Shown: piece by piece, positions 17,815 through 60,440 of the stretch
Layout: every line of letters starts with the position of its first letter
How positions within the stretch are numbered: the first letter of the stretch is position 1
Assembly: GCA_024663395.1 (NCBI GenBank)
Contig: JANFAH010000029.1
Coordinates: 620,001-684,000 of the forward strand
Direction: 5' to 3'
Length of the DNA stretch: 64,000 bases
From: Pisolithus tinctorius
Taxonomy: Eukaryota > Basidiomycota > Agaricomycetes > Boletales > Pisolithaceae
Program-made: the position numbers and the translations under genes
Notes under the pieces: generated by a model
The model's database searches: none
Seen by the model: the letters and a program-made list of their open reading frames with translations, nothing else
What the model was told of the DNA's origin: nothing

Positions 17815-18103
17815 CGAAGGTATGAGTTTCTCAGTGTATGAAGTAGTCACTATATTAGTACCTAATGAAGGTATGAGTTTCTACACTATGTCAGTACCAA
17901 GTAAACAAGTGGGAATCTAGCTATACTCACCTCAGTGTATGAAGTAGTCACTGAGGTGGAAAAGAACGGTGTGGAAAATTTATAGTACCATAATTAGTAA
18001 GCGCATTGACATCGGAATTTAATTCCGAGGGTCGGGGAACAATTCCGAGCCCTCTGGGCGAAACTCTGAGATGCTACCGTAACTCTGGATTGCATTCTCG
18101 ACA
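17815..18103 (-). repeat. 3' LTR of the copia element (289 bp)
   Basis: In element orientation it starts TGTCGAG (at 18103) and ends CCTTCG (at 17815). It differs from the 5' LTR at nine bases and no indels, all at CpG-derived positions. It contains an internal partial duplication of a segment beginning GAAGGTATGAGTTTCT. Confidence 0.93.
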
Positions 18104-18113
18104 CTCCCCCTCA
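18104..18113 (-). other. Polypurine tract of the copia element
   Basis: On the minus strand TGAGGGGGAG immediately precedes the 3' LTR start TGTCGAG. The pol stop codon TGA (18111-18113) forms its first bases. This is the expected primer site for plus-strand DNA synthesis. Confidence 0.85.
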
Positions 18114-21100
18114 ATCGGAACAAAGTCCGAGTGCGGACACGAAGTGTTTCACCTTGATGCTAGGTAGAGGCTTGGTAAGGGTATTGGCAACCATGTCGTC
18201 AGTAGGACAATAAATTAAACGAAAGGAATTGTTTTCCACAGCAAAACAAATGAAATGGTATTGTATGTCGATGTGCTTTGTGCGAGCATGATAGCTGCCA
18301 TCTTTGGTAAGTGTGATGGCAGATTGACTGTCGGAATACAGTGGGATAGGGTGTTTGAGTGGTTGGAAAACTTCTCCGATGAGTTGTCGAAGCCACAGGC
18401 CCTCTTTGGCTGCATGAGTTGCTGCGACATACTCCACTTCAGCAGTGGAGAGCGTTACAAGTTCTTGTTTCCGTGAAGCCCAACTGATAGCTCCACCATC
18501 CAGTAGGTAGGCATATCCGCTTATAGCATGTCGATGCTCCTGCGAAGCTCCATCTGCATTGGTATAGCCTTCGAGGCCTCGTTCTGAATTTCCGAACATT
18601 AAAGCGAGCGCTTTTGTGCCTGAGATATACCTGTAGATTCGTTTCACGGCCTCCCAGTGAGTCATGTTGGGTGCATTGTTGAACTGCACGACTGTGGAGA
18701 CAGCAAATGCAATGTCAGGGCGCATTCCAACGGCGAGGTGCATGAGGGAGCCAACAGCAGCATGGTAGGGTACGTTTTTCATGTGTGCAGCTTCTTCGGC
18801 TGGCTGCAGAATTTCTCCACAAGAGAGTTTTATTCTGGGGTCCATTGGAATTGTGGCAGGTTTGCAGTCAGCAAGGTTGTATTTCGTTAGGATGGCCTCG
18901 ATGTATGACTGCTGCGACAGGGATATGGTGCGGGCTTCTCTGTTCCATGTCACCTTCATCCCAAGTAGCCAACTGATGGGCCCTAGGTCGGAGATTTTAA
19001 AACAAGTGCTGATCTCCTGTTTAAATGAGCGAATTAATGGTGGGGAACTGCCTGTTACAGTGCAGTCATCGATGTGGCTGGCAAGGATGAGGATTTCCGA
19101 TCCTATGCGACCGTAGAACACTCCCCAGTCTGCGTGTGCTCTGGTGAGCCCAAGATCTGCAAGAGTAGCGCATAGCTTCTGGTACCACCGAAGCATGCCT
19201 TGTTTCGAGCCATATAATGCTACGTTTAGCTTCCCAACTGGATGGGAAAAATTCCGCCCTACAGCGTAGCCCTCAGGGAGCTCCATGTAGATGTCTTCGC
19301 CATCTCCGAGTTTGCCATTGAGGAATGCCGAGTGGAAATAGAATACATTGATATCCCAGTCATTGTGTGCAGCAACTGCTAGTATGGTGCAGAGAGATGC
19401 GAGTCTTGCGACGGGAGCATATGTTTCATCATAGTCAATGCCCTGGATCTGAGAATAGCCCTTAGCGACTAGGCAGGCCCTGTACTTCTCGATTTCTCTG
19501 GCAGCGTTGCGTTTGATCTTGAAGACCCATTTGCATCCTACAACATTTGCACCTTTGGGGCACTCAGCGACATCCCAGGTATGCGCTTCCTCTAGGCTGT
19601 TTAATTCCACATTTATGGCATTTTGCCACTTCAGCCAGTCAGCTCGGGATTTCGCCTCACGGACTGTTGATGGGTCTAGCCCTTCAGCTTCAGCCATCCC
19701 TGCCACCATAGCATACACGATGTTAGTGTCATCTTCATCAGCAGCTAGTTCTTCATCGAATACATAGGTAGCGTTTTCTCGGGATTTCGGGCTGTTTGGG
19801 TTGCTATCACTCTCTCAGAGTTCTTTTACGAAGTCGAGAGGGATGCGCCCATCACGAGTGCCTTCCCCTGCACGTAGGCACCTCATATAGTCTGATTCGA
19901 AGCGCTGGCGAGTGGAACGATGAGGTTGAGGTGGAGGTGTTTTGAAATTGTCTCCGAGTGGGTCCGGAATTAGTCTCGGAATTCCTGAAGTTGCTTCGGT
20001 GGGTCGCTCAACCATCTGTGGGGCCTCGGAATTTCCCTGTGAAGCTGCGGAGTTCCGTTCTGAGGTTTCGGAATTTCGTTTTGAGGCTTCGGAATTCCCC
20101 TGCTCCCCCTCGAGTGGCACACCATGTGGTACAGACACATCTCGGCGCTCGAAAATGACACTTCTTTCAATTCCGATTGCTCATGTGTCAGGCCAGTAGA
20201 TATGGTGGCCATCGCTCTCAGGGTCAAAACCTACCCAGTGTCCATCTCGGGCTCACATGTCTAGTTTGGAGCCAGAGGTGTCATGGACCTTGACACAACA
20301 TCCCCAGACCAGAATTTTTGAGAGATCGGGTGGTCTTTGGTAGAGCATTTCGTAGGGAGTTTTCGTGCCTAGACGGCAAGTTGACAAGCAGTTTTTGAGC
20401 CAGGTCGCATGCATAATGGCCTCCCCCCAGAGGTTCTTGGGTAGGCCACTGGCATGAATCATCGCATGTACACGCTCAACAAGTGTTCTGTTGAGTCGTT
20501 CTGCAACTCCATTGTGTTCAGGGGTATCATGGACGGTTATGCGTCATTCTGTGCCTCGGGATTTCAGATATTCCGAAAATTCCGCACTAAGGTATTCTCC
20601 CCCTTGATCTGAGCGAAGTCGCTTGACTTTGGTGTCGAACTGTGTGTTCAGCCATGCTTCATAGGCCTTATATGACATGAAGGTCTTGGCTTTCGTCTTT
20701 TGGAGGTACAGCTTGGTGTAGCAGGTGTGGTCGTCTGTGAATGAGACGTAGTACTGACTGTGGCCAGGGGTTTGGACCGGAGAAGGTCCCCAGAGATCTG
20801 TGTGGACCTTGTCACCTAGGTGTTCATGGCGGGGTGGGTCACGCTCCTTCCCAATGGGCTTCCGAGTCGCTTTGGCATATTCACATGAATTGCATGTGCC
20901 CATGGTAGGATGTGCTTCGTCCAGTCTAATTCCGGTAATCGTGCCATTCTTGAGCATGCGCCAGATGGCTTCGGGAGCGATGTGGCCAAGCCTTATGTGA
21001 ATCTCCTCCATGGTTAAGGATTCCGTGGCCTTGGCTAGGCCTGCGAAGGCATGACAAGCTCGTTTGAGACAGTAGAGGCCTTTTTGCATTGGAATTTCAG

Positions 21101-22508
21101 CTACTTTCTTTTTCTGAGCATCGAAAATTTGACAACGCTTGTCTCGGAATAATGCCACATACCCAGCGATGTCAAGTTTGCTAATGGAAACGAGTGTAAT
21201 TCCCATCTTGGGAGCATAGAGCACGTCCTTGAGTCAAATATGGGTCTGGGTAGTGCCGTTTGGGAGTGAAATTGCAAGGTCGCCTTTCCCGATGGCATGG
21301 AAGGTGTGGTTGTCGGCAGCGGTGATAGGTTTGGGTATGATTGGCTTGTAGTCGAGGAATTTGCTGTGGTAGGAGGACATATGACGTGAAGTGCCAGAGT
21401 CGAACAGGATTGTCTCTTCTGCGGAATTTAGGCTTTCGCCTGCAAGGAGAACATGGTTGTAGTTGTTCGTATATGCATCTTCTTCGTCATTAACAATGTC
21501 CTGGGGGTTCGGAATTTCTTCCTCCACAATTTCCATAAGCCAGTCATCATCCTGTGGGTGCACTAGCCAAACTCCATCAGGTTCCGAGTCAGCGCTGGTC
21601 TGCGCACTCGAGCTGGCTGATGCACTGGCCGCAGTGGCCGCTTTTCCGATACCTTTCTCCTTCTGTTTCCCTTTTCCCTTGTTCTGGAACCACTTGGGCG
21701 CTCGCCCAGCTTTTCCGCCACCCTCTTCCCAGCATTGGTCTTTCGTATGACCTTTCTTTCTGCAGTTTTCACAAGTGGACTTCTTTCCATCCTTTGCTGA
21801 GTAAGCCGCATCTTTGGAATTTCCAGAGTTTCCAGAGTTGCCTCTCTTCGTCTGTGTTTGGCGCCTATCATATTCATCAGAAATTACTTTGATTATGAAG
21901 TCCGGAGATAGGTCCTTTTGCATGACTAGGGCCAAAGATGTCATAGCTGTGAGGTTGGAGTCGTAAGAAGTGGGAAGTGAACTGAGGATGATGGCTGCAA
22001 AGTCGTCGTCTGTGATTGACTGTCCAAGCGCGGCAAGTTGTTCGCGCAGTGCATGCATCTTGTCGAAGTGAGCGCGGACATCGCCTTTTTCCAAACAGCG
22101 GGATTCTTGGAGTTTTCTCCGAAGGTCAATTGCAACGACGCAAGAGCGGTTTTGGAAAAGATCGGTGAGGACACCCCACACACTCTTTGCAGTCTCTTCC
22201 TTCAGGACTCGAAGGAATAGAGATTCCGGGAGCAACACAGCGATCACTTGCTTGATGTATCCGTCGTCCTTAGCCCATTGCCGCAGTTTTTCTGGGTATT
22301 CACTGACAAGTTTTTGCTCCGTGGCTGTGGGCTTCCAGGAGGCATCTTTCCCTGCTGAAGGGTCCTCTGGTTTCGCATCCAAGCCGGTCAGGTGTCCGAT
22401 CAGCCCTTTCGAGCTGATGGCCCATTCAACCCAAGCCTTGTAGTATAGCCAGTTGCTTCCATCCGCATTTAGGGTTGGGACTTGTAAGGAATGATCGTCT
22501 TTTGCCAT
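18111..22508 (-). pseudogene. copia gag-pol polyprotein interrupted by five TGA codons
   Basis: One frame of 1,466 codons runs from ATG at 22508 to TGA at 18111 with no frameshift. In order it holds a UBN2-type Gag, the zinc knuckle CENCRKKGHTKDQC, protease DSGTSRHM, integrase zinc-binding residues (HIRLGH, then CNSC), integrase core (HTDLWGP, FTDDH, DQGGEY, DTPEHNGVAER), reverse transcriptase (WVFKIKR, FHSAFLNG, LYGSKQG, SHIDDCT as the YxDD-type site) and RNase H (GYTNADG, STAEVEY, DSQSAI). In-frame stops are at 21234-21236, 20544-20546, 20253-20255, 20181-20183 and 19815-19817. All are TGA in positions where an Arg codon fits relatives. The first RNase H catalytic Asp is replaced by Asn (18558-18560). 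Confidence 0.93.
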
Positions 22509-22548
22509 AGTGGGTATTGTTGCTGTGTATTAACTCTTTCGGAATTAG

Positions 22549-22572
22549 AGCGCGAGAGCGGGGCTCATAACC
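22549..22572 (-). other. Primer binding site matching the 5' half of initiator tRNA-Met
   Basis: The plus strand here reads AGCGCGAGAGCGGGGCTCATAACC. Its last part equals the anticodon arm of eukaryotic initiator tRNA-Met (GGGCTCATAACC with CAT anticodon), so the element RNA is complementary to an internally cleaved tRNA. This is the priming mode known for Drosophila copia. Three bases separate it from my LTR boundary at 22576, so either the LTR ends a few bases later or a small spacer exists. Confidence 0.75.
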
Positions 22573-22575
22573 TAA

Positions 22576-22864
22576 CGAAGGTATGAGTTTCTCAGTGTAC
22601 GAAGTAGTCACTATATTAGTACCTAACGAAGGTATGAGTTTCTACACTATGTCAGTACCAAGTAAATGAGTGGGAATCTAGCTATACTCACCTCAGTGTA
22701 TGAAGTAGTCACTGAGGTGGAAAAGAACGGTGCGGAAAATTTATAGTACCATAATTAGTAAGCGCATTGACATCGGAATTTAATTCCGAGGGTCGGGGAA
22801 CAATTCCGAGCCCTCTGGGTGAAACTCTGAGACGCTACCATAACTCCGGATTGCATTCTCGACA
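22576..22864 (-). repeat. 5' LTR of the copia element (289 bp)
   Basis: This copy has the same length as the 3' LTR, with TGTCGAG at its start (22864). It is followed outside by the ACATC target duplication. Confidence 0.93.
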
Positions 22865-35525: not shown

Positions 35526-36174
35526 CTGTGAGCTCTATGCTACTCCCTTGTCACTCGTTCAGCCTTCAGACCTCTCCCTCCTCCCGGAACTACCCCTGTT
35601 CTCTACCCCGGTGCTATGGTGTTGACCTAGCACCTCTTTCCAGTCCTTGGTGGACCCAGCCTTGGTTCTCTCTTGGTCTCCGACCCCTGTTTTAACCAGC
35701 CTTGTCAACCCATTAGGAACTGAAGTGTCTTGGTTGTAGGGAACCGACTAGCCCACTCAATAGGCACCCGTTGTCACACACCAAAGGTGTTGTGGACATG
35801 GTTACAGCTGACTCTGCCTAACTCGTTGATGAGTTGCGCGCAATGCCCAAGCATGCAGATGAAGACTAAAGGCCTCATGCGTAGAAAGACTGTTGGACGT
35901 GAACAGTCATCCTTCGCACAAGATCGAGTCGTCAGTGCTAAAGAGAAAAGAGGAAGCGAGTTAAGCGCACATTAAAGGTTTTTAGCGCCCGTGTACGGCA
36001 TTCCGGTTTTCGTCATATCTCCACCATTTCCAAAGATATCGACTCCATTCCCATGCTCGCTTAAAGTGCTCAGCCCCACAATTCTTCCTTCCAAATTTGG
36101 AGAGGATCCTCGCACCCTACGTGTTACTACAGCACTCCATCCATCAGACGCTCATTTCGCAAAGTCCATCAATC

Positions 36175-36654
36175 ATGGCCGCCTCTTCGTCAATCATCTC
36201 GCTTGTCTCATTTGCCAGAGACAGTGGCTACATATATCTGCCAGGCATTCCCACCAGCTTCCATCCTGAAGCCCCCTGGTTCATCCCATCGTTGTCAGCC
36301 CCATCTCATCCCATGCAGCTTGGTCAGCGTGTTCTCCTTGTCAGTATGACTTCCAGAAGGACATTCTTTGGTCGCCTCAGGTCTGTCACTTGGTTAGAAT
36401 GGTCTTATGTGGTCATTTCAGTCCCCCCAGTTGATGAAGCATATGGATCGTTCCTCCCTGCTCCTTGCACCGTCTTTATTCCAGTCTCGTCCATCATTCT
36501 TCCCGCATTGCGACAGCTGCAGTATAACCTACTGTCCTCCAGCCTCCCTGATCGCATTCATGACGAGTATGACGTGCAACTTGCCTTCCTACTGCAAGAT
36601 CCAGCAGAAGACGTCCCTCCTTCTCCTCCTCCTCCATCAGAACCCCGTCCATGA
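36175..36654 (+). CDS. ORF within the U3 of the 1.8-kb LTR (159 residues), intact copy
   Basis: ATG at 36175 follows a CCATCAATC context and the stop is TGA. Recognisable blocks are SIISLVSFARDSGYIYLPG, SLSAPSHPMQLGQRVLL, TSRRTFFGRLRSV and FIPVSSIILPALRQLQ, followed by a short acidic/proline-rich end. The same 480-nt frame, with no length change, is found in all four LTR copies, across two diverged subfamilies. I recognise no domain. It lies upstream of the LTR TATA box, so in a full element it would be carried by the 3' end of the genomic transcript or by a separate promoter. Function unknown. Confidence 0.7.
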   Translation: MAASSSIISLVSFARDSGYIYLPGIPTSFHPEAPWFIPSLSAPSHPMQLGQRVLLVSMTSRRTFFGRLRSVTWLEWSYVVISVPPVDEAYGSFLPAPCTVFIPVSSIILPALRQLQYNLLSSSLPDRIHDEYDVQLAFLLQDPAEDVPPSPPPPSEPRP

Positions 36655-37091
36655 AGTTTTTGTTAACTTCGCTGAGAGGATGGAAGGGTGGGAGACGCGA
36701 TCGCATATGCTCTCATTGCCCCACAGACCCCCAACGCCCTAGCCCCCTTTGACGCCTGACTCATGCCCTTCAATTCTGGAATTAATACTTCCCTGTCTGG
36801 AAACACTGTCCATCTGTCATGCCATCTTTGGATCTAGAGATGTCTCCGCCGAGATCTGACTTGCATCGCCACCCCCTAATGTGATATCAGTGTGCTTACT
36901 CAGTTTCTGACTCTATTTGACTCGTTCTGTGATATTTTGACTATCCTTGACTCGTTCATTGCCAATACTTACCAATCTTCTTTGCTTGCTTACTTTTCAT
37001 TTCTCGCTTACTCATCATGATTACTCAGTCCTTACTCATTACTTACCAAGTGTTTGTGCCTTGTTTGTCACAAGCTGTGCTCCCCCCTCAG

Positions 37092-37099
37092 TATATAAA
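37092..37099 (+). promoter_or_regulatory. TATA box of the solo LTR
   Basis: TATATAAA sits in a pyrimidine-rich context about 545 bp before the LTR end. The inverted copy has TTTATATA at 47313-47320 in the equivalent place. Confidence 0.6.
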
Positions 37100-37642
37100 C
37101 CCCCATGTACTTAGCTACCCACAATCAATCAGAATCAGGAATCAATCAAGAAGTCATTCAGAAGAAGTCAGTTCAGCTCAGTGCCTATCTCGTCGTCGAC
37201 AGTTGAGGCTCCACGAAGGGGTCTATCTGTCATCATTCATATCCTTGGTAGTTGAGGCTCATTCGGAAGAGTCTATCTACCACCATTATCTGAAGCTCCA
37301 TCCCCACTTAGTCAGCAAGTCTTGCTTAGTCATCCTCCCACTCCTGCATAACTCGTCATCGACTTGTGCAAGGAGCACATTTACTTGAAGTCCATTACTT
37401 GAAGTACCTTTCGGCTGAACACCTTCGCTCTGTTCAGCGTCCCCTTCTCAATTGGCATTCATTCATCCTCTCCTGCGTAACTCGTCGTCGACTTGTGCCA
37501 GGAGCACCTCTACTTGAAGTCCCCCCCCACATTCAGGTTTCTGCCCTCCAGGTTCCGCAGAGGCACACCACCACTCGCTCTACTTTTGTCTTTTGTGTTG
37601 GTTTTGGTTGGTTCCCACTGCCTTTCCACACTTTGACTCACA

Positions 37643-40340
37643 CCGTTGGTGGCCAAGTGTAGTGCAGTCACCTATCCCCACCTAATACTAAAGTTTGCTA
37701 ACCCCCCTGACGTCAACCCCACCTTGGAGCATGAATTTGCTTGCAAGACACCCCAGGCTTCAGCCCATCTGACAAACCCCTGACTCTGCCGGTCTGTTTC
37801 CCAGCTCACCCACTCGCCCTGGAACTTGTATGTTTGCGAGGCCCCTTCGGGTACCAGCTGACCCCTCACCTTCCCCTAACCATTGCCACTGGCACCCCAC
37901 CATCGACTTGGGAACTCCGGTCCTACCCACTCTCCCAACTCCGGTCTTACCAGTTGTCTTTTGGCCTGCCGGTCTTCACTGGCCTTCTTGTTTCCTCTTG
38001 GGCTCTGGTTCCAGCCTTCATACCCTCACCTTTGACTATGACACTCCTTACTATCCCTGTACCAGTCTGGCCTGCTCTGCTGGCCTTGTGTCTCTGGTTT
38101 TAAAGCTTTTCCAGCCTTGAAAAAGCTTCCCGAAACTGGTCTTAACACCTGTTAAGCCGGTCTTGGCATTCTCAGTACTTGGACTTGCAACTCCGGTGGT
38201 AGTACTCCTACTGCCCATCCAGTACTCCACTCCATGGTCCTAGCCCATACCTTGTACCCCTGTAGACTTGGGAAGTCTACCCTAAGAGGGGGATAAGGGA
38301 CCTCGCTAGTGACCTACTCTCTCCCAAACCCCTGTCTGCTACCTCTCCAGTGCCCTCAGCACAGCACCACTCAGTCCCTGCACACCAGTTCCCAGTTCCT
38401 TGGCCTGGTCCTTGCATACTGAAGCACTCCCAAACCACCTGCCCTGGGTTGCTCCCAGCCCCTGACATTTGTGTTGGTACTCTGGTCTCACTGTCTCAAT
38501 GGTCCTTGGCCTCAGTGATTGTGTGTTCATGGGTCTCACTGGTCTTGGCCTCCTGTTGTCAGCCTTTTGGCTGGACAACCCCTAGGCCTCACCCAGTCTC
38601 CAGACCCCCTGAACCGGTCCTCCAATGGCCCTTTTGGCCTTCAGGCTTCTCACCACTGGAGAACCCACCTCCAACCAACTCCAGACACCCCTAAACTGGA
38701 CTCAACACCTGGACTCACCTCCTGTTGACATCCCTAGGCCTTCATTGAACCAGTCTCATGACCTGCTGGTCCCCGGTTCATGCCTAACTATGTCAAGCCC
38801 TCTGGTCCTTGTCCAGACCAAACTCTAGCTGTTGTAGACAGCCCCTAGTCCCTCACTGTCCTCCAGAAGCCCATCTGGCCTGTTCCAAGGTGCTCGGCAC
38901 TTGGGCTTGCCACTTCCGGCCTCGGGTTCACACCTTGCTACCCCTGGTTACCCCAGTCTCAGTGTTAGCCCGCCGGCCCACACTGTTTTGGCCTCCAGTC
39001 GTCAGCCAACCAGCTGGATGGCACCTCAGGTCACCTCTAGCCACCCCAAACCCCTCTGACACCTTCAGACCAGCCTCCAGCCAGCCACTCTGGCCCTGCC
39101 CAACCCCAGACCGGTCTCCCTTTGACATTTCTGGCCTTCCAGCCCTTCCCAGGTCCAAACCAGTCTCCAACTAGCCTTCCTGGCCTGTCCTGACCACCAG
39201 ACTGGTCTCCTGATGGCCTCTGGTCTTCTCTGGCTCCAGACCGGTCCCCACCTGTCTGTTCAAGCCCTCTCCGACCCTCAGACTGGTTCCCGGCCTTCCT
39301 GGCCTTCTGTCCCCTTGACCAGTCTTTGGTTTTGCTGTTTTCTCCAGACCAGTCACTTTAGCACAACTGGCTCCACCACTCCCAGTCTCAGTCTCCAGCT
39401 TTTGCCACCCCCAGCCTGAGCCACCCTCGGTCTCAGCCTTTGGCTTTGACCCCTGTCTCTAGCTCTGGTCTCCTGTTTCCTTGTTATATGTTTTCTCAGT
39501 TTTTCTGTTATCTGTTATCCTTTTCTGTAGATACACACTTTCAGACCCTATGACCCCCTAGAGCAGACCTTGGACCCGTTCTGGCCTTCTCAGCACTTCT
39601 CATGACCCTCAGTACCCCTGCAGTTGCACTCCCAGTCCAAGCAGTGCATTCCTAGACCAGTTTTCTGGCCTTCCTGGCACCCACCCAGCCTTTGTGTCAT
39701 TCCAGTGTCACTCAGCAGCACACTGGTACACCCCTGGACCATCTTTTGGTCATCCCTGGACCTCTCTGGACCATCTCGGCCTCCATGTTGCCCTGAACTG
39801 GCTTTGAAGCACACATCCAGCCCTAGTGGCACACTCCTGGTACATTAGTTGGACATTACCAGTCCCCTGCACATCTTCAGTCTCCAGTTTCCCCTGACCT
39901 GGCTCTGAAGCACACCCCTAGGCCTTACCTGGCCATTCCTGACCTGCCTTAACCCAACTCCAAAGTGCAACTCTGACCCCCCTGAAAACACTGGCTACAG
40001 CTTTCAGCTGTCTCTGGAAACCCCCATATAGCCGGTCTAATCACTTCCGGACTCAGCTTTGCCTTGTCCCGGCCTGCTGAACTGTCTGGCAGCCTCCTAG
40101 ACCGGCCTCCAGCCTGTTTGTTGTTGCTTCTCCAGCCTTGGGTTCCCAGAACAGTCTTCGGACTTGACCCTTGCCCCCAAACCTGGCTTATGCCATTCTG
40201 GTCTGAACTACTGGACCTCCAGTCATTGCTGGCCTGTCTCCCAGCCCTCGGGCTCACCCTTGGCACTGTGTGTGCACTCGGACTCACTCCTAGTCATTGG
40301 ACCTCACTGCATAACCCTCTGAACATATTTCCCTATGGAA
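37643..40340. other. Strand-asymmetric pyrimidine-rich region without genes
   Basis: The plus strand is dominated by C and T with recurring words CCAGTCTGG, CCGGTC, TGGCCTTC and CCTGACC. CCTAAGAGGGGGATA at about 38280 resembles the polypurine tract found between the two LTRs at 41260. The region shares vocabulary with the LTR pair that follows and may be an older, degraded copy of a related element. I see no supported coding region. Confidence 0.5.
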
Positions 40341-42198: not shown

Positions 42199-43064
42199 GC
42201 ATGCCTGATCGCCATCTGTGCCATCGACCTGATGAACCAATGCCACTCCTGACATTGCGAGTACAGTGCCGGAATTGTATCGGAACTGCATTCCCAGCTC
42301 TGGGACGATAAAGTCCAGGGGAGCGTAGCGTCTGACTGTCAACAACGTGTCCAACCATACCTTTTGGCCATTTGTATCTTTATGGGGGGGAGAGTTCTGA
42401 TTTACCATTAATGACATGGAACTGTAGATGCTGTTCCAGATTGGCAATATGGCCTGCATATCTTTGTCTTGCCACACAGCTGCTGTCAATCTGAGTCACA
42501 CAAGTGCCTCCCACCCATGTAGGTACATCTTCAGGTGCATGATATGCAATGCACCCGATAGAATGGCATGTAGCCCAGCCATGCTATCTAGCCATTGACA
42601 GGTCTCCTTTGGTCGAGACTTTTCTTTTAACAGTAGTGATACTTCCGGGTGATGTGAAAGGTTGCTGGGCTGTTGGCAGAGTTACAGGAGTGAAATCATC
42701 TTCAAATGGATAATGACTCACCCCACACCCTTGCTGAAACCACGCTGGTGAGAGGTCGATGGCACCTTTAAGATCTGTGGCTTTGTGAAAATGGTTTGAA
42801 TCGTGCCACCAGCTGCCTGCCCCATTGGACTTCATGCTCCGCACAAGTGGGATACTGAGGCTGCCCAACAAATTCCAAATCTCGGCCTGATCGGATTGTT
42901 AGCAAAGTGCGGGATGCTCCATTCAATTTTACAACCTGATATGCCTGCCCAAACACATCCAGGAGATACCACAGGAGGATGTTTCCCTCTTTGTCAATTA
43001 CTGCTGCTGGATGATTGATTTCTGTGTAAGTTGAACGGTCTGCGATGGCATTTGCATCCTGCAT
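42199..43064 (-). pseudogene. Second TET/JBP-like dioxygenase copy, 3' end lost
   Basis: Minus-strand segments read INHPAAVIDKEGNILLWYLL (about 43005-42946), then IDLSPAWFQQGCGVSHYP (about 42758-42705), then ILPIWNSIYSSMSLMVN, the iron-binding HKD, WLDTLLTVRRYAP, VPELGMQFRYNSGTVLAM and LVHQ (42460-42230). This is the same domain order as the copy at 30897-31910, so it is a paralogue. The frame runs into an LTR at 42198, removing the C-terminus with the 2-oxoglutarate-binding end. The 5' part (42648 upward) is inside a large palindrome and duplicated at 45738-46154. Confidence 0.72.
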
Positions 43065-43614
43065 TTCCTCTACAATGACTGCGAGAGTCTTAGCCTTTCA
43101 AATTTCGTGGATGGATGGACTTACTGCATTCACAATATGCTGCAGCTATGACCAGCAAAATGTGATCCACTTCACAAGCTATCTGCAATGGAATCAACAC
43201 ATGTGGGAGGGTGCGTGGGCTGCCAATGACCTCCTCACGCAATCTGGACATCATGTATGCAGATACACAGTCTGTCAGCTCCATTTTCCAATTACCCAGG
43301 AGGCTTTTGGGGCTTTGAAATGGGGTCATTGTATGGCAGACAAGCAGCAGATCATTGGACCGAAATTCTAAGATTGTTGGTACAGGCCGACAATCAGACA
43401 AATCAGTATTTGAATTACAGAAATGCCTGGCACCCGATGTATTATCAAGTGCCAACAAGGAAATTCAAGCTATCGAAGGTCAGTGATATTGCCCCTTTGA
43501 ATTGTTTCTATTGTCCAGCCTCATAGATGTATCCACATGACAATTCCATCTTTATAATCTCTGTATATGCTCAAGTTGATATATAATGTGATGATGGCGC
43601 CCTTGTTCCCACTA

Positions 43615-43831
43615 CAGCAAGGGACAAAAGTGTTGCAATGTTTGTGATGTGTGAATTGTTGCTGATGTAGCTTGTGATATTCTGCACAGATAATCATGAT
43701 ACCTATACCATTGGAAAGGGATGACTCTAAGCTTTCCAGAGAACTAAGGTTCAGTCAAAACAAAGCAATACATGCTGAGATACACCCTATTCTTTACAAA
43801 ATGTGCATTGCAACGCTTTTGTCCCTGACTG
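43615..43831. mobile_element. 217-bp Tc1/mariner-type MITE (left arm copy)
   Basis: The left end is TA followed by CAGCAAGGGACAAAAGTGTT. The right end, reverse complemented, begins CAGTCAGGGACAAAAGCGTT. The terminal CAGT and ACAAAAG words are typical of Tc1/mariner inverted repeats. The TA is present on the left, but the right flank reads GT. No coding capacity. Confidence 0.65.
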
Positions 43832-44970
43832 GTGAAATCATGAAATGTGACCTTTTGATGGGATTGACGGCATGGAGGATGGGAAAAAATGCTTACATAA
43901 TAAACCACATGATCTTCTAGATGATTTGTCAGCATGTAAACAATGACAAACATTGGACTTGTACCATTAATCCTCCCTCTTTTACCACAACTCATGAAAT
44001 CATCTCTCTAGCTCACATGGTCATTTTCTCAAGGAATTCTTATCAAATACTGGTGGCCACCACAGTGCCATCAGTATAACATGCTCTCAGAACCATCAGT
44101 CCCTTAAAAAACCTGCTGTCAGTCATTTCCTGGACTGTTTCCCCCCCCATGCCTGATGTGTTCTGGGACTAATCAGTACTTGGAAGGCTGAAAATGTTAT
44201 GGAGGTCAATCTGGCACTTCAGAACATGATGTACAAACCAGTCCCCTCTCAACCAATGCATTTCTGGCACAGGGACACTGATATGGAAGTTGGGGTGAGA
44301 CAAAACCTCCTGGTGCTCTGAGCACCATAAGAGGGTTCACTAGATCTTGCTCTGATCTGAACTGTAGATGACTGGGGAAGGATTATTTGGTCATATGTGA
44401 CCAAAGGCAATATTCAGGGCCAGATGGAAGCACAGGATTCTGCTCCATGGCAGTTCAGTAGCATATCCTTCTGATGACACCCAGGGATAAAGAGGATTTT
44501 GTCTTGCCCTAACTTCCATACCACTGTCCCTGTGCCAGAAATGCATTGGTTGAGAGGGGACTGGTTTGTACATCATGTTCTGAAGTGCCAGATTGACCTC
44601 CATAACATTTTCAGCCTTCCAAGTACTGATTAGTCCCAGAACACATCAGGCATGGGGGGGGAAACAGTCCAGGAAATGACTGACAGCAGGTTTTTTAAGG
44701 GACTGATGGTTCTGAGAGCATGTTATACTGATGGCACTGTGGTGGCCACCAGTATTTGATAAGAATTCCTTGAGAAAATGACCATGTGAGCTAGAGAGAT
44801 GATTTCATGAGTTGTGGTAAAAGAGGGAGGATTAATGGTACAAGTCCAATGTTTGTCATTGTTTACATGCTGACAAATCATCTAGAAGATCATGTGGTTT
44901 ATTATGTAAGCATTTTTTCCCATCCTCCATGCCGTCAATCCCATCAAAAGGTCACATTTCATGATTTCAC

Positions 44971-45187
44971 CAGTCAGGGACAAAAGCGTTGCAATGCACA
45001 TTTTGTAAAGAATAGGGTGTATCTCAGCATGTATTGCTTTGTTTTGACTGAACCTTAGTTCTCTGGAAAGCTTAGAGTCATCCCTTTCCAATGGTATAGG
45101 TATCATGATTATCTGTGCAGAATATCACAAGCTACATCAGCAACAATTCACACATCACAAACATTGCAACACTTTTGTCCCTTGCTG
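44971..45187. mobile_element. 217-bp Tc1/mariner-type MITE (right arm copy)
   Basis: This is the mirror image of 43615-43831 inside the palindrome, created by the large duplication rather than by an independent insertion. Confidence 0.65.
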
Positions 45188-45737
45188 TAGTGGGAACAAG
45201 GGCGCCATCATCACATTATATATCAACTTGAGCATATACAGAGATTATAAAGATGGAATTGTCATGTGGATACATCTATGAGGCTGGACAATAGAAACAA
45301 TTCAAAGGGGCAATATCACTGACCTTCGATAGCTTGAATTTCCTTGTTGGCACTTGATAATACATCGGGTGCCAGGCATTTCTGTAATTCAAATACTGAT
45401 TTGTCTGATTGTCGGCCTGTACCAACAATCTTAGAATTTCGGTCCAATGATCTGCTGCTTGTCTGCCATACAATGACCCCATTTCAAAGCCCCAAAAGCC
45501 TCCTGGGTAATTGGAAAATGGAGCTGACAGACTGTGTATCTGCATACATGATGTCCAGATTGCGTGAGGAGGTCATTGGCAGCCCACGCACCCTCCCACA
45601 TGTGTTGATTCCATTGCAGATAGCTTGTGAAGTGGATCACATTTTGCTGGTCATAGCTGCAGCATATTGTGAATGCAGTAAGTCCATCCATCCACGAAAT
45701 TTGAAAGGCTAAGACTCTCGCAGTCATTGTAGAGGAA

Positions 45738-46154
45738 ATGCAGGATGCAAATGCCATCGCAGACCGTTCAACTTACACAGAAATCAATCATCCAGCAGCA
45801 GTAATTGACAAAGAGGGAAACATCCTCCTGTGGTATCTCCTGGATGTGTTTGGGCAGGCATATCAGGTTGTAAAATTGAATGGAGCATCCCGCACTTTGC
45901 TAACAATCCGATCAGGCCGAGATTTGGAATTTGTTGGGCAGCCTCAGTATCCCACTTGTGCGGAGCATGAAGTCCAATGGGGCAGGCAGCTGGTGGCACG
46001 ATTCAAACCATTTTCACAAAGCCACAGATCTTAAAGGTGCCATCGACCTCTCACCAGCGTGGTTTCAGCAAGGGTGTGGGGTGAGTCATTATCCATTTGA
46101 AGATGATTTCACTCCTGTAACTCTGCCAACAGCCCAGCAACCTTTCACATCACC
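45738..46154 (+). pseudogene. Duplicated N-terminal part of the TET/JBP-like gene
   Basis: Plus-strand mirror of 43064-42648, encoding the same INHPAAVIDKEGNILLWYLL and SPAWFQQGCGVSHYP segments. Homology stops sharply at 46154, where a transposon-terminus sequence begins. Confidence 0.75.
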
Positions 46155-46785: not shown

Positions 46786-48639
46786 TGTGAGTCAAAGTGT
46801 GGAAATGCTGGTGAAAACCAAACAAATCCAACACAAAAGACAAATAAGAGTGAGTGGTGGTTTGCCTCCGTGGAACCTGGAGTGCAGAGAAACTTAAAGT
46901 GGGGGGAGTTTCAATGGCAGGTGCTCCTAGCGCAAGTCGTTGACAAGTTACACAGGAGTAGATGAATGGATGATGACTGAGGAGGGGATGCTGAACAGAG
47001 TGAAGGTGTTCAGCCGAAAGGACTTGGGGGTAATGGACTTTTGATAAAATATGCTCCTGGTGCAAGTCGATGACAAGTTACACAGGAGTGGAGGGATGAC
47101 TAAGCAAACTTGCTGACTAAGTGTGGGGATAAAGCTTCAGATGAAATGATGGAGGCAGATAGACTCTTCTGAATGAGCCTCAACTACCAAGTATACGAAT
47201 GATGACAGATAGACCCCTTTGTGGAGCCTCAACTGTCGATGACAAGATAGGCACTGAACTGACTGCTGGACTTTTTTCTCAATTGCTTCTTGGGTAGCTA
47301 AGTACATGGGGGTTTATATACTATGGGGGGAGCACAGCTTGTGACAAACAAGGCACAAACACTTGGTAAGTAATGAGTAAGGACTGAGTAATCATAATGA
47401 GTAAGTGAGAAATGAAAAGTAAGCAAGCAAGGAGGATTGGTAAGTATTGGCAATGAATGAGTCAAGGATGGTCAAAACATCACAAAATGAGTCATATAGA
47501 ATCAGAAACTGAGTAAGCACACTGATATCACATTAGGGGGTGGCAATGTAAGTCAGATCTCAGCGGAGACATCTCTAGATCCAAAAATGGCATGACAGAT
47601 GGACGGTGTTTCCAGATAGGGAAGTATTAATTCCAGAATTGAAGGGCATGAGTCAGGTGTCAAAGGGGGTAGGGCATTGGGGGTCTGTGGGGCAATGGGA
47701 GCATATGTGATCGCATCTCCCACCCTTCCATCCTCTCAGCAAAGTTAACAAAAACTTCATGGACAGGGTTCTGATGGAGGAGGAGGAGAAGGAGGGACGT
47801 CTTCTGCTGGATCCTGCAGTAGGAAGGCAAGATGCATGTCATACTTGTCATGAATGCAATCAGGGAGGCTGGAGGACAGTAGATTTTGCTGCAGTTGTCG
47901 CAATGCGGGAAGAATGATGGACGAGATTGGAACAAAGACGGTGCAGGGAGCAGGGAGGAACAATCCATATGCTTCATCAAGAGGGGAGACTGAAACGACC
48001 ACATAAGACCTTTCTAACTGAGTGACAGACCTGAGGCAACCAAAGAACGTCCTTCTGGAAGTCATACTGACAAGGAGAACACGCTGTCCAAGCTGCATGG
48101 GATGGGATGGGGCTGACAACGACAGGATGAACCAGGGGGCTTCAGGAAGGAAGCTGGTGGGAACACCTGGCAGATACATGTAGCCATTGTCTCTGGCAAA
48201 TGAGACAAGTGAGATGATCAATGAAGAGGTGGCCATGATTGATGGACTTAGCGAAATGAGCATCTGATGGATGGAGTGCTGTAGAAATGTGTAGGGTGCG
48301 AGGATCCTCTCCAAATTTGGAAGGAAGAATTGTGGGGCTGAGCACTTTAAGCAAGTGTGCGAACCGAGTCGATATCTTTGGAAATGGTGGAGATATGACG
48401 AAAACCAGAATGCCGTACACAGGCACTAAAAACTTTTAATGTGCGCTTAACTCGCTTCCTCTTTTCTCTTTAGCACTGACGACTCGATCTTGTGCAAAGG
48501 ATGACTGTTCACATCCAACAGTCTTTCTACGCATGAGGCCTTTAGTCTTCATCTGCATGCATGGGCATTGCGCGCAACTCGTTGACGAGTTAGGCAGAGT
48601 CAGCTGTAACCATGTCCACAACACCTTTGGTGTGTGACA
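46786..48639 (-). repeat. Solo LTR, 1,854 bp, inverted relative to the 35.8-kb copy
   Basis: In its own orientation it begins TGTCACACACCAAAGGTGTT at 48639 and ends TTTGACTCACA at 46786. The flanking tetranucleotides are GCAT (46782-46785) and GCGT (48640-48643), compatible with a 4-bp duplication in which one copy lost a CpG. It contains TTTATATA at 47313 and the 480-nt ORF. Confidence 0.85.
47757..48236 (-). CDS. LTR-encoded ORF, second intact copy (159 residues)
   Basis: ATG at 48236 and stop at 47757, exactly 480 nt as in the copy at 36175. The protein shares the FARDNGYMYLPG, QLGQRVLLVS, SRRTFFGCLRSV and SSIILPALRQLQQ blocks, with amino acid substitutions spread along it and no indel. 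Unknown function. Confidence 0.7.
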   Translation of the reverse strand: MATSSLIISLVSFARDNGYMYLPGVPTSFLPEAPWFILSLSAPSHPMQLGQRVLLVSMTSRRTFFGCLRSVTQLERSYVVVSVSPLDEAYGLFLPAPCTVFVPISSIILPALRQLQQNLLSSSLPDCIHDKYDMHLAFLLQDPAEDVPPSPPPPSEPCP

Positions 48640-54918: not shown

Positions 54919-56729
54919 TGTCACACACCAAAGGTGTTTGGTGAGGTGGACATGGATACAGCTGATGAATGGAGATGAAGACCATAGCTCTCATGCAAAG
55001 AAGGACAGCCAGAAATGTTGGCAGTCATCCCTCGCACAAGAATGAGTTGTCAATGCCAAAGAAAAAGGAGAAAGTGAGTTGAGTGCTGGTCAAAATTCTT
55101 AAGTGCCCTTGTATGGCATTCTGGTTTTCAACATATCTCCACCATTTCTGCAGATACAGAAAGCATTCCCACACTCGCTTGTAGTGCTCAGCCACGCGGT
55201 CCTACCTTCCAAAATTGGAAAGGATTTGCACACTCCACATGTTTTTACAGCACTCCCTCCAAAAGATGCTCATTTCACTAATTCTTCTGATATGGCCACC
55301 TCCACATCAATCATTTCGCTTGTCCCCTTTGCTAGGGACCATGGCTACGTATATCTACCAGGAGTTCCTACCAGCTTCTGTCCTGAAGCATCCTGGTACA
55401 TCCTGTCCTTGTCTGCCCCCTCTCAGCCCATCCAGCTTGGACAGCGTGTTCTTTTTGTCAGTATGTCCTCTAGGAGGACATTCTTTGGTTGCCTCAGGTC
55501 TGTCATTCACTTGGAAAGGTCTTATGTGGTTGTTTCAGTCTCTCCAGTCCAAGAAGCATATGGATCCTTCCTCCCTGCTCCCTGCAATGTCTTCATACCA
55601 GTCTCGTCCGTCATTCTCCCAAAATTGTGACAGCTACAGTATAATCTACTGTTCTCTACTCTCCCTGACCGCATCCATGATGAGTATGATGCACATCTTG
55701 CCTCCTTATTGCAAGATATAGCAGAAGATGCTCCCCCTTCATCCTCTCTTCCATCAGAGCCTCATTCATGAAGTTTTTATTTGCTTCACTGAGAGGATGG
55801 TTTGGGGGGGAAAGTTGCGATCCCCTATGCTCCTGTCACCCCACAGACCCCCAAAGCTTGACCCCTGTTGACATCTGACTCACCCTGTCCACTTTTGGAT
55901 GTACTATATTGGCATCAGGTCAGCGCTGCCTCTCTGTCATCCTACCTTGGCCTAGAAGCGATCCCTTCGAGATGTGACATGCACAGCCTCCCCCTAATGC
56001 GATTCCAGTGTGCTTTCCCAGTTTCTGACTTTACTTGACTCATACTTTGACATCCTGACTGTCTTTGACTCACTTATTGCCAATACTTACCAGTCTTTTG
56101 GCCTTGCTTACTGATTCTTTGCCTTTTGGCTTACTTATCCTTACCAATGCTCACCAATGCTTTCTAAGATGATTACCCACTGCTTACATTCCTTACTCAT
56201 CAGTTACCAATCACTTACCAAGTGTTTGCACCTTGTTTTCCATAGGCAACGCCCCTGTACTGTGTATAATCACTGTACTTAGATAGCTAAAAAAAAAGAA
56301 GACATCAGAGAGCCCCTCTTGCTCGCAATTTATCATCTCTCAGTAATTCATGCAGCAGCTTCAATAGTTGAGACTTTATTAAGGGTCTAACTATCGTCTA
56401 CTTCGCTTATCCTTGCCTATCACCAATATACTTTGCTCCAAGCCCTCCCTGAGCTCAGTGCAGCTTAGGACATCGAATTAAGTCGTCATCCATCCTTCTG
56501 TAGGCTGACAGCAGTCTACCCTATCGCATCCTATCGCATTCCTGCTCCTTCTTCATCAGAAGCATCCCCAATCCTCAGCACTCATCTTTGAGTGTTGTAG
56601 CTCGCAAAAACCCCTTCAAAGAACAGGTCCCACCATCTAGGTACCGCATAGGCACACCACCACTCGCTCTTTTTGTCTTTTGTGTTGGTTTTGGTTGGTT
56701 TCCACCACTGAACCACACTTTGACTCACA
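54919..56729 (+). repeat. 1,811-bp LTR, left arm
   Basis: It starts TGTCACACACCAAAGGTGTT and ends TTTGACTCACA. It belongs to a different subfamily from the solo LTRs at 35.8 and 46.8 kb: about 50 bp shorter and with many substitutions. It is followed by GCGGTAGCAATTTTAC. Confidence 0.88.
55292..55771 (+). pseudogene. LTR-encoded ORF with one TGA (left arm)
   Basis: The frame has the same 480-nt length and position as the intact copies. It is open except for TGA at codon 113 (55628-55630), where the intact copy at 36511 has CGA. Blocks SIISLVPFARDHGYVYLPG and SSRRTFFGCLRSV are conserved. Confidence 0.75.
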
Positions 56730-57462
56730 GCGGTAGCAATTTTACTTAAGGTAAACCTGACCTTTGTCCTCTCAATCTATCCTAGATCTAAGCGTTGTCA
56801 GATGGTCACTGAAAGTAATTCTACTGCTCCATAGGTGGCACAGACCACTCACAATGCTGAGCAAGCAGCAGTGACATCACAAACAACCCTTCTCAATACT
56901 CTCAACCACATGATGTTTGGTGATCCACAGGTTCAGAGCTCTGCCTGACAACAATGTAATAATGGAAATTGACCAAGAGATTCAGTCTCGTAACAATGTC
57001 AACACAGTATCTTTCTCTACCCGAACATCCTCCTCATGAGTACAGTCACGAGAAGAAACTCCAGTATCAGACCATTTTCAAACTCCTGTATCCTCACGAG
57101 AACTGACACCAGCCATCCGAAGACCACCACTTTCCTCTGACAACGGCGTTGTTGAGCATGACAAATGGTCAAGGGCCCAAACACGACAGAACAAAGGTTG
57201 GAGAAATTTCCCAATCATCACATTTATGTCTTGTCAGCTAAGCCATCAACCCTCGATCTTATCACAGCACATGGGGCACAAGAATGCCTTGTACCATGTC
57301 CTTTATCGCTAATATTAAAAGGTCCACCTACCTCAAGGTTTTGTTCTCTAACACCTCTCCTCCCCCCAGCAAGCAAGATGCTCCAACGAGTTACATTCAA
57401 GATTACGCTGTGAAATGAGAATGGCGATACTACTGCAGTAAGTTAGGTTCTTGTTCACTTAC
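56730..57462 (+). other. Element interior next to the LTR
   Basis: This may be leader or start of gag. ORF 57165-57413 (with LEKFPNHHIYVLSAKP) has a related, degraded copy at 62630-62945 on the minus strand. I recognise no gag or pol domain and no clear tRNA primer site. Confidence 0.5.
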
Positions 57463-57896
57463 CTCTTTCTGAAGCTAATAGCACATAGGGCTCACCCATT
57501 AGATGGGCAGTTGCATCTCTCATGTTCTCTGTCTCTCAGTGGATGTGCACATACCTGCCTTCTTGTGCAGCACCAAAAATTGATCAATACAAGTCCACAG
57601 GTAGGCTCCTTTAGTCCACTGATGTTGATATACTCATTGATGTGATAATCGACTGTGATGCCTGATCATACCAAAGAGCGAACAAGTCTACGGGTCACAT
57701 ATAGCCCACGAAACATCAATGTGTGACACCCCCAGAAGCGGTGCATACTCCATACGTAGAATACTGCAATGCTGGTATGTGCTAGGTATCATCGATTTTT
57801 ATACCAATACAGTATCCTCTACAGATGCTGGCTCCGAACTCCTGCATCTCGAGCGATGATCTTGGAGGTCCTTGGACTAGAACTACATTTCTTACT
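57463..57896. other. Unique spacer of the palindrome
   Basis: 434 bp without inverted counterpart, gene or repeat that I can identify. An ORF 57451-57645 overlapping its left edge has no recognisable content. Confidence 0.6.
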
Positions 57897-58629
57897 GTAA
57901 GTGAACGAGAACCTAACTTACTGCAGTAGTATCGCCATTCTCATTTCACAGCGTAATCTTGAATGTAACTCGTTGGAGCATCTTGCTTGCTGGGGGGAGG
58001 AGAGGTGTTAGAGAACAAAACCTTGAGGTAGGTGGACCTTTTAATATTAGCGATAAAGGACATGGTACAAGGCATTCTTGTGCCCCATGTGCTGTGATAA
58101 GATCGAGGGTTGATGGCTTAGCTGACAAGACATAAATGTGATGATTGGGAAATTTCTCCAACCTTTGTTCTGTCGTGTTTGGGCCCTTGACCATTTGTCA
58201 TGCTCAACAACGCCGTTGTCAGAGGAAAGTGGTGGTCTTCGGATGGCTGGTGTCAGTTCTCGTGAGGATACAGGAGTTTGAAAATGGTCTGATACTGGAG
58301 TTTCTTCTCGTGACTGTACTCATGAGGAGGATGTTCGGGTAGAGAAAGATACTGTGTTGACATTGTTACGAGACTGAATCTCTTGGTCAATTTCCATTAT
58401 TACATTGTTGTCAGGCAGAGCTCTGAACCTGTGGATCACCAAACATCATGTGGTTGAGAGTATTGAGAAGGGTTGTTTGTGATGTCACTGCTGCTTGCTC
58501 AGCATTGTGAGTGGTCTGTGCCACCTATGGAGCAGTAGAATTACTTTCAGTGACCATCTGACAACGCTTAGATCTAGGATAGATTGAGAGGACAAAGGTC
58601 AGGTTTACCTTAAGTAAAATTGCTACCGC

Positions 58630-60440
58630 TGTGAGTCAAAGTGTGGTTCAGTGGTGGAAACCAACCAAAACCAACACAAAAGACAAAAAGAGCGAGTGGT
58701 GGTGTGCCTATGCGGTACCTAGATGGTGGGACCTGTTCTTTGAAGGGGTTTTTGCGAGCTACAACACTCAAAGATGAGTGCTGAGGATTGGGGATGCTTC
58801 TGATGAAGAAGGAGCAGGAATGCGATAGGATGCGATAGGGTAGACTGCTGTCAGCCTACAGAAGGATGGATGACGACTTAATTCGATGTCCTAAGCTGCA
58901 CTGAGCTCAGGGAGGGCTTGGAGCAAAGTATATTGGTGATAGGCAAGGATAAGCGAAGTAGACGATAGTTAGACCCTTAATAAAGTCTCAACTATTGAAG
59001 CTGCTGCATGAATTACTGAGAGATGATAAATTGCGAGCAAGAGGGGCTCTCTGATGTCTTCTTTTTTTTTAGCTATCTAAGTACAGTGATTATACACAGT
59101 ACAGGGGCGTTGCCTATGGAAAACAAGGTGCAAACACTTGGTAAGTGATTGGTAACTGATGAGTAAGGAATGTAAGCAGTGGGTAATCATCTTAGAAAGC
59201 ATTGGTGAGCATTGGTAAGGATAAGTAAGCCAAAAGGCAAAGAATCAGTAAGCAAGGCCAAAAGACTGGTAAGTATTGGCAATAAGTGAGTCAAAGACAG
59301 TCAGGATGTCAAAGTATGAGTCAAGTAAAGTCAGAAACTGGGAAAGCACACTGGAATCGCATTAGGGGGAGGCTGTGCATGTCACATCTCGAAGGGATCG
59401 CTTCTAGGCCAAGGTAGGATGACAGAGAGGCAGCGCTGACCTGATGCCAATATAGTACATCCAAAAGTGGACAGGGTGAGTCAGATGTCAACAGGGGTCA
59501 AGCTTTGGGGGTCTGTGGGGTGACAGGAGCATAGGGGATCGCAACTTTCCCCCCCAAACCATCCTCTCAGTGAAGCAAATAAAAACTTCATGAATGAGGC
59601 TCTGATGGAAGAGAGGATGAAGGGGGAGCATCTTCTGCTATATCTTGCAATAAGGAGGCAAGATGTGCATCATACTCATCATGGATGCGGTCAGGGAGAG
59701 TAGAGAACAGTAGATTATACTGTAGCTGTCACAATTTTGGGAGAATGACGGACGAGACTGGTATGAAGACATTGCAGGGAGCAGGGAGGAAGGATCCATA
59801 TGCTTCTTGGACTGGAGAGACTGAAACAACCACATAAGACCTTTCCAAGTGAATGACAGACCTGAGGCAACCAAAGAATGTCCTCCTAGAGGACATACTG
59901 ACAAAAAGAACACGCTGTCCAAGCTGGATGGGCTGAGAGGGGGCAGACAAGGACAGGATGTACCAGGATGCTTCAGGACAGAAGCTGGTAGGAACTCCTG
60001 GTAGATATACGTAGCCATGGTCCCTAGCAAAGGGGACAAGCGAAATGATTGATGTGGAGGTGGCCATATCAGAAGAATTAGCGAAATGAGTGTCTTTTGG
60101 AGGGAGTGCTGTAGAAACGTGTGGAGTGTGCAAATCCTTTCCAATTTTGGAAGGTAGGACCGCGTGGCTGAGCACTACAAGCGAGTGTGGGAATGCTTTC
60201 GGTATCTGCAGAAATGGTGGAGATATGTCGAAAACTGGAATGCTGTACACGGGCACTTAAGAATTTTGACCAGTGCTTAACTCGCTTTCTCCTTTTTCTT
60301 TGGCATTGACAACTCATTCTTGTGTGAGGGATGACTGCCAACATTTCTGGCTGTCCTTCTTCGCATGAGAGCTATGGTCTTCATCTCCATTCATCAGCTG
60401 TATCCATGTCCACCTCACCAAACACCTTTGGTGTGTGACA
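58630..60440 (-). repeat. 1,811-bp LTR, right arm
   Basis: Mirror of 54919-56729, same length and termini. Confidence 0.88.
59588..60067 (-). pseudogene. LTR-encoded ORF with one TGA (right arm)
   Basis: Mirror of 55292-55771, carrying the same TGA at codon 113. The stop therefore predates the duplication that made the palindrome, or was copied by conversion between the arms. Confidence 0.75.

Follow-up and report, generated by a model that had tools for sequence, protein, structure and literature searches.

LTRs (long terminal repeats) of retrotransposons are usually viewed as regulatory DNA. Does this view hold for a locus of the root-symbiotic fungus Pisolithus tinctorius (Basidiomycota, Boletales), where a 480-nt open reading frame (ORF) lies in the unique 3' (U3) region of an LTR? 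The window, that is, the whole analyzed stretch of 64,000 nt, covers positions 620001-684000 of contig 29 in a genome assembly of 92.5 Mb and 221 contigs. The comparison of LTR copies from two subfamilies, A and B, suggests that this U3 ORF is very probably a genuine third gene of a Ty3/gypsy retrotransposon, coding and under selection, and such a gene would break the assumption of purely regulatory LTRs for this lineage. The copy in question has the following features, in window coordinates:

36175-36654, plus strand: U3 ORF of subfamily A, from ATG to TGA, 159 codons plus stop (480 nt), open
35772-37642, plus strand: solo LTR of subfamily A, 1,871 nt, start TGTCACACACC, end GACTCACA
35768-35771, plus strand: left target-site duplication, CCGT
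37643-37646, plus strand: right target-site duplication, CCGT
36130-36132, plus strand: CAG resembling a splice acceptor (putative function), 42 nt 5' of the ATG, inside a conserved block
37092-37098, plus strand: LTR promoter box TATATAA, 3' of the ORF

Most other subfamily-A loci lose homology at the boundaries of this LTR or within a few bases of them. The LTR has a single TATATAA, at 37092, and the ORF ends 438 nt before it; the original prediction had correctly placed the ORF in U3, upstream of the TATA box.

The evidence for selection comes mainly from the divergence of the two subfamilies. Between 36 copies of subfamily A and 29 copies of subfamily B, the Nei-Gojobori (NG86) method yields a synonymous divergence (dS) of 0.49 and a nonsynonymous divergence (dN) of 0.11 in the ORF frame, hence a dN/dS of 0.23; the two alternative frames give 1.12 and 1.69. 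Codon positions 1, 2, and 3 account for 9, 9, and 32 of the fixed A/B differences (chi-square p 2.5e-5). NG86 ratios are biased low, because transitions dominate (the transition excess, kappa, is about 15 over 64 copies and 4.2-7.5 in small samples), and as the sole measure they were replaced by codon maximum likelihood (ML). The codon ML ratio (omega) between the subfamilies is 0.27-0.35 in the ORF frame (range over eight randomly drawn sets, each with two A and two B copies), versus 1.5-2.1 and 2.1-2.9 in the two wrong frames. By the same procedure, gag has 0.21 and pol 0.24, a small yardstick of five gag and four pol elements with only one of subfamily B; an earlier comparison had included six elements for gag and four for pol. 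Over all branches of the 64 copies, omega is 0.54-0.56, versus about 1.2 and 1.9 in the other frames; this higher value is expected if most branches represent decay after insertion. The dN/dS ratio, proposed in the original prediction as a check, is far below 1, and in the ORF frame alone.

The codon phase is also localized. In sliding windows, the excess of third-position differences is found only inside the ORF, with none upstream, and fades across its last ~100 nt, which encode a proline-rich tail. Downstream of the ORF the differences are uneven too, but in a different phase; in the first 160 nt past the ORF, one wrong frame has a ratio of 0.42. Per-column conservation at the three codon positions of the ORF is 0.937, 0.953, and 0.855.

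Nonsynonymous changes were then counted against an expectation that takes the mutation spectrum, including CpG, into account. They are depleted among fixed differences (observed 21 of 50, expected 35.2, z -4.5) and among variants shared by four or more copies (observed 34 of 71, expected 48.3, z -3.7), and only slightly so among singletons (44 of 72, 50.4 expected, z -1.7). A simple table of fixed differences versus singletons gives p 0.044. Variants present in two or three copies fall off this gradient (26 of 34, 23.0 expected, z +1.1), a point against selection acting as proposed here. Since the depletion is strong in fixed and common changes and slight in singletons, the gene appears to be needed while the element replicates but of no use in a dead copy. 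In all likelihood, the amino-acid sequence of the ORF is selected in replicating lineages and drifts near-neutrally after insertion.

The length of the ORF says little by itself, because 17 of 300 dinucleotide shuffles of the window LTR contain ATG frames of at least 159 codons, and it was dropped as evidence of coding. Selection had initially been suggested on the grounds of length and frame conservation in four LTR copies of the window; that argument from length is weak, whereas selection itself is upheld by dN/dS. The three other copies and their LTRs are:

46786-48639, minus strand: second LTR of subfamily A
47757-48236, minus strand: U3 ORF of subfamily A, 480 nt, open
54919-56729, plus strand: solo LTR of subfamily B, target-site duplication GCGG, left arm of a palindrome
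55292-55771, plus strand: U3 ORF of subfamily B, 480 nt, single TGA at codon 113
58630-60440, minus strand: LTR of subfamily B, right arm of the same palindrome
59588-60067, minus strand: U3 ORF of subfamily B, 480 nt, same TGA at codon 113

All four copies from the two subfamilies indeed retain 480 nt without an indel, two of them open and two with one TGA. However, the two TGA-carrying copies are not independent, since they form the two arms of a single palindrome with 99% identity (54919-57462 and 57897-60440). The suggested origin of the stop by a CGA-to-TGA change agrees with the sequence: codon 113 is the sole CGA codon in the intact copy examined and therefore the only site where CpG decay of CGA yields a stop. 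The palindrome (54919-60440) consists of the subfamily-B solo LTR and a further 733 nt, its outer ends being the 5' ends of the LTR, and the genome listings contain more inverted pairs of this LTR.

Genome-wide, first-pass searches gave 1,687-2,060 candidate copies (unconfirmed counts), and each ORF search scored the best 150 of about 2,050 candidates. With the subfamily-A query, 147 of the 150 scored places are stop-free and three have one TGA; with the subfamily-B query, these numbers are 122 and 28. Seventy distinct copies were retrieved, excluding three partial matches (1-257, 1-440, and 41-480 of 480). The length is 480 nt in 66 of them (one truncated at the start and one without the stop codon) and 477 nt, with a 3-nt deletion, in three; one is cut by the edge of the retrieved sequence. 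The ATG is present in 69 of 70, the exception being truncated; an internal stop occurs in eight, each time at codon 113; and frame-breaking indels, another check suggested for the ORF, were found in none. To these copies can be added a sample picked independently of the ORF, consisting of 50 exact junctions between the LTR and the candidate primer-binding site (PBS). At least 23 of them correspond to a stop-free ORF in the hit lists. Ten of the remaining 27 were read: eight are open (one readable only to codon 159), one has the TGA at codon 113, and one lacks most of the ORF. The frame is unshifted in nine of these ten junction-anchored elements missing from the ORF hit lists. Retention of the frame across the genome is far beyond chance.

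Indels follow a similar pattern, counted against one reference copy at loci picked by ORF similarity, a choice that favors an indel-poor ORF. In 32 subfamily-A LTRs, we observed one distinct indel (of 3 nt) in the ORF, eight in the 440 nt that follow it, 57 in the final 550 nt, and three in the 410 nt preceding the ORF; in this subfamily, the region upstream of the ORF is indel-poor too. In 27 subfamily-B LTRs, the corresponding numbers are one (an artifact of a truncated copy), eight, 35, and, upstream, 13.

The carrier is a Ty3/gypsy LTR retrotransposon. Its full-length elements are recognized by two copies of the same LTR in direct orientation, spaced about 9.64 kb and with TG...CA ends; these pairs carry the ORF, as it should be if the ORF belongs to the element. 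Among six full-length elements read inside, the gag and pol frames are unbroken in four; a fifth carries one stop in gag and one in pol, and the sixth a pol frameshift. Pol of the single element scanned for domains has the order RVT_1, RT_RNaseH, Integrase_H2C2, and rve in one frame, which is the Ty3/gypsy order, and the first ORF of this element contains DUF4100. This first frame, with 1,317 codons, is unusually long for gag and overlaps pol by 620 nt in another frame. The sequence directly 3' of the 5' LTR, the candidate PBS, is constant at the 50 exact junctions, and GGTGGA, a candidate polypurine site, precedes 3' LTRs. Because the gene resides in U3, each full element holds two copies of it and each solo LTR one.

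The element integrates at CpG only. Both flanks are genomic in 48 LTRs. The 4-bp target-site duplications are identical NCGN in 23 of them and identical ATGT in one; in 11 the only difference is CpG decay on one side, the other side still being CG, in three there is decay on both sides, and ten show some other difference. At -3/-2, all 58 genomic 5' flanks have CG (41), TG (10), or CA (7); at +2/+3, all 54 genomic 3' flanks have CG (42), TG (6), or CA (6). These counts disregard five of 63 5' flanks, in which the polypurine sequence is present, and likewise the 3' flanks that consist of the PBS sequence. CpG makes up 2.8% of dinucleotides in the window, and TA, also a pyrimidine-purine step, never occurs at the integration position.

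The same observations can be read in other ways. The frame might be open by chance, in a stop-poor LTR whose copies are too young for decay. The shuffles agree with this, and so do ~63 codons 5' of the ATG, also open in most matches. But the upstream open stretch has no codon phase, so that openness and coding can be distinguished here. A dS of about 0.49 against a dN of 0.11, out-of-frame ratios above 1, and the same protein kept by homologs at roughly 40-50% identity also speak against chance, which has very little probability left; the codon phase already refutes it, unless that phase is an alignment artifact. A cis-acting constraint, preserving an enhancer, a promoter, or an RNA element rather than a protein, would be natural in U3, where regulatory sites are usual, and parts of the flanking U3 are conserved too. 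Nevertheless, codon positions 1 and 2 of the ORF are constrained and the third is freer, both in column conservation and in fixed differences. A DNA or RNA element yields no codon phase, and thus a cis element alone is just as improbable as a chance frame; a dual role, protein plus cis element, is conceivable.

Selection might also act on a captured or domesticated host gene instead of the element. Some copies are annotated by NCBI as hypothetical proteins, and with only 150 candidates scored per protein search a single-copy host relative is possible. On the other hand, in the retrieved ORF-similar loci the ORF is flanked on both sides by LTR homology, about 2,000 candidates exist, and the selection signal resides in changes common to many LTR copies, not in singletons; we consider this origin very unlikely. 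Similarly low is the probability that the ORF is a 3' exon of a longer protein starting upstream in U3 or pol, as might be thought from the gene models P0001, P0009, and P0010, which start upstream, and from mutually similar upstream peptides among JGI/ENA matches. The upstream differences have no codon phase (ratios of 0.70-0.90 in the three frames), a 1-nt subfamily difference just 5' of the ATG shifts the upstream frame, and the ATG itself is nearly universal in the retrieved copies. The lack of phase and the 1-nt difference led us to reject a coding upstream extension. We thus prefer the interpretation of the ORF as a gene of the element.

The product of the U3 ORF belongs to a wider protein family found in Pisolithus and in JGI/ENA entries. 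A single-sequence search gave eight homologous proteins (E 0.001), a profile 55, and a wider profile 194 (E 0.1 for both profiles). Among the 120 of 194 that were listed, all organism-named matches are from Pisolithus (P. orientalis, P. albus, P. microcarpus, and P. tinctorius); the other listed relatives are entries of JGI and ENA, presumably of metagenomic origin, whose clusters reach 137 members. Invariant residues in a 35-row alignment (P. albus numbering) are Y19, P26, W35, P46, L49, Q51, G66, S70, E75, S77, V83, P85, Y90, and G91. In the gene models P0003 and P0004, 18 residues of the barrel described below are missing, as if the annotation had placed a 54-nt intron there; this is probably a prediction artifact, because other copies keep the stretch.

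No domain had been recognized in the protein initially, and searches confirm this. The window protein has no Pfam match at E up to 1, the Sag family included. Nine family members searched at E up to 10 matched only p12I of HTLV (human T-lymphotropic virus; best E 0.0079, four of nine members) and bpX3 (E 0.17, one of nine), again with no Sag family; both were taken as chance matches to leucine/serine/proline-rich sequence. The best match to PDB by sequence has E 0.16, PHROGs and phages searched by tblastn gave no match, and 30 stretches of IMG/VR contigs that fit a pattern include no relative.

The suggested structure prediction of the 159-residue product was also performed. The AlphaFold model of the window protein has a mean predicted local distance difference test score (pLDDT) of 75.6, and that of the P. 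albus relative has a pLDDT of 84.2 and a predicted template modeling score (pTM) of 0.74. In both, an initial helix is followed by one strand, a series of strands at 52-103, and two final helices, which are confident only in the P. albus model. An env-like third gene would be expected to encode a clear membrane-spanning segment; the maximum of 19-residue hydropathy is 1.76, in a segment starting at residue 94 that is modeled as strand and helix. Foldseek at E 0.001 accepted none of 350 PDB matches for the window model and none of 266 for the P. albus model; against viral models, none of 523 passed, the best (E 0.0085) being an uncharacterized phage protein. Tudor domains occupy nine of the top ten PDB rows for the window model (E 0.3-0.9), and the first Tudor row for the P. 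albus model ranks sixth (E 1.3). The best VIA scores, 4.5 and 4.0, both belong to ribosomal proteins, and Tudor rows are near 3. Tentatively, the models can be described as a small SH3-like beta-barrel with additional parts. Compared with Tudor and other SH3-like small barrels, to which no score is significant, the models have an additional strand (19-23) and additional terminal helices.

How could such a gene be expressed? In the genomic RNA, ordered R-U5-gag-pol-U3-R, the ORF comes last, 3' of pol, and would therefore need its own mRNA. This mRNA could start within the 5' part of U3 or be produced by splicing into the CAG at -42, which is kept in all 58 aligned copies. The one donor pattern tried, GTRHGY, is absent between the TATA box and the gag ATG in six of six elements. 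With no match to this pattern, splicing from the leader to the ORF is not claimed, and a start inside U3 seems at least as likely. As for function, the modeled architecture (an N-terminal helix, an SH3-like barrel, two C-terminal helices, and an acidic proline-rich tail) would suit a binding module rather than an enzyme. One possible role, which we put forward with considerable reservation, is that of an adaptor helping the element to handle host chromatin or RNA, e.g., in targeting or in escape from silencing.

The position of the ORF was originally compared with that of ORFs in U3 of some vertebrate retroviruses. The analogy holds for position and arrangement only, because the host is a fungus and the carrier is a Ty3/gypsy element. 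A partial precedent is sag of mouse mammary tumor virus (MMTV), located in U3, a protein gene in the 3' LTR that makes this LTR exceptionally long. The P. tinctorius ORF resembles sag in position, as a coding ORF under probable selection within U3. A sag-like gene would also be read from a spliced subgenomic mRNA with an acceptor close to the ORF on its 5' side; the CAG at -42 is a candidate acceptor, and the donor pattern tried gave no match. In contrast, MMTV is a vertebrate retrovirus, the product of the U3 ORF has no Sag family match, and fungi have no T cells as a superantigen target.

Retrosat2/RIRE are also Ty3/gypsy elements. Published descriptions of these rice elements report long LTRs and an extra ORF whose function is unclear, ORF0, which evolves faster than the gag-pol ORF, lies upstream of it, and is found only in grasses (PMC3485330). 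Unlike the U3 ORF, ORF0 is outside the LTR. In fungi, the subfamilies of the LTR retrotransposon crapaud of Podospora anserina are described as diverging mostly in U3, which the authors propose to reflect promoter or enhancer evolution; its LTRs are 339-443 bp long with a divergent U3 part of less than 200 bp, and the ORFs named in the accessible text are GAG and one spanning from reverse transcriptase (RT) to chromodomain (PMC10787394). A study of nine genomes from Pisolithus links transposable elements with genes in their vicinity, and its accessible part contains no mention of a U3 ORF (PMC10066745). In the open-licence full-text literature, we found no report of a protein-coding ORF inside a fungal retrotransposon LTR; as far as our searches reach, such a selected U3 gene is undescribed for fungal Ty3/gypsy elements.

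A broader scenario, plausible enough to state yet doubtful, is that a protein family of unrecognized fold constitutes a conserved third gene of a fungal Ty3/gypsy lineage, carried in the LTR, with solo LTRs serving as a trans-acting reservoir. If so, each solo LTR would be a complete small gene, with up to about 2,000 copies per genome, and reservoir copies could act in trans on new elements, e.g., in chromatin targeting (the CpG-only entry) or in silencing. The survival of the gene in solo LTRs thus offers a route to ask whether elements help or hinder each other after the loss of gag-pol, and the protein is a concrete accessory candidate for a role in targeting or silencing escape. A selected gene in U3 would also complicate the use of LTR divergence as a neutral clock.

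Other repeats in the window include two further long palindromes of 99% identity, at 42648-46154 (arms of 1,688 nt) and 9377-10052 (318 nt), and a tandem array at 4440-6561 with periods of 58 and 106 nt. A Copia element at 17815-22864 on the minus strand has 289-nt LTRs that are 97% identical, RVT_2 in its pol frame, and ACATC on each side, a target site without CpG.
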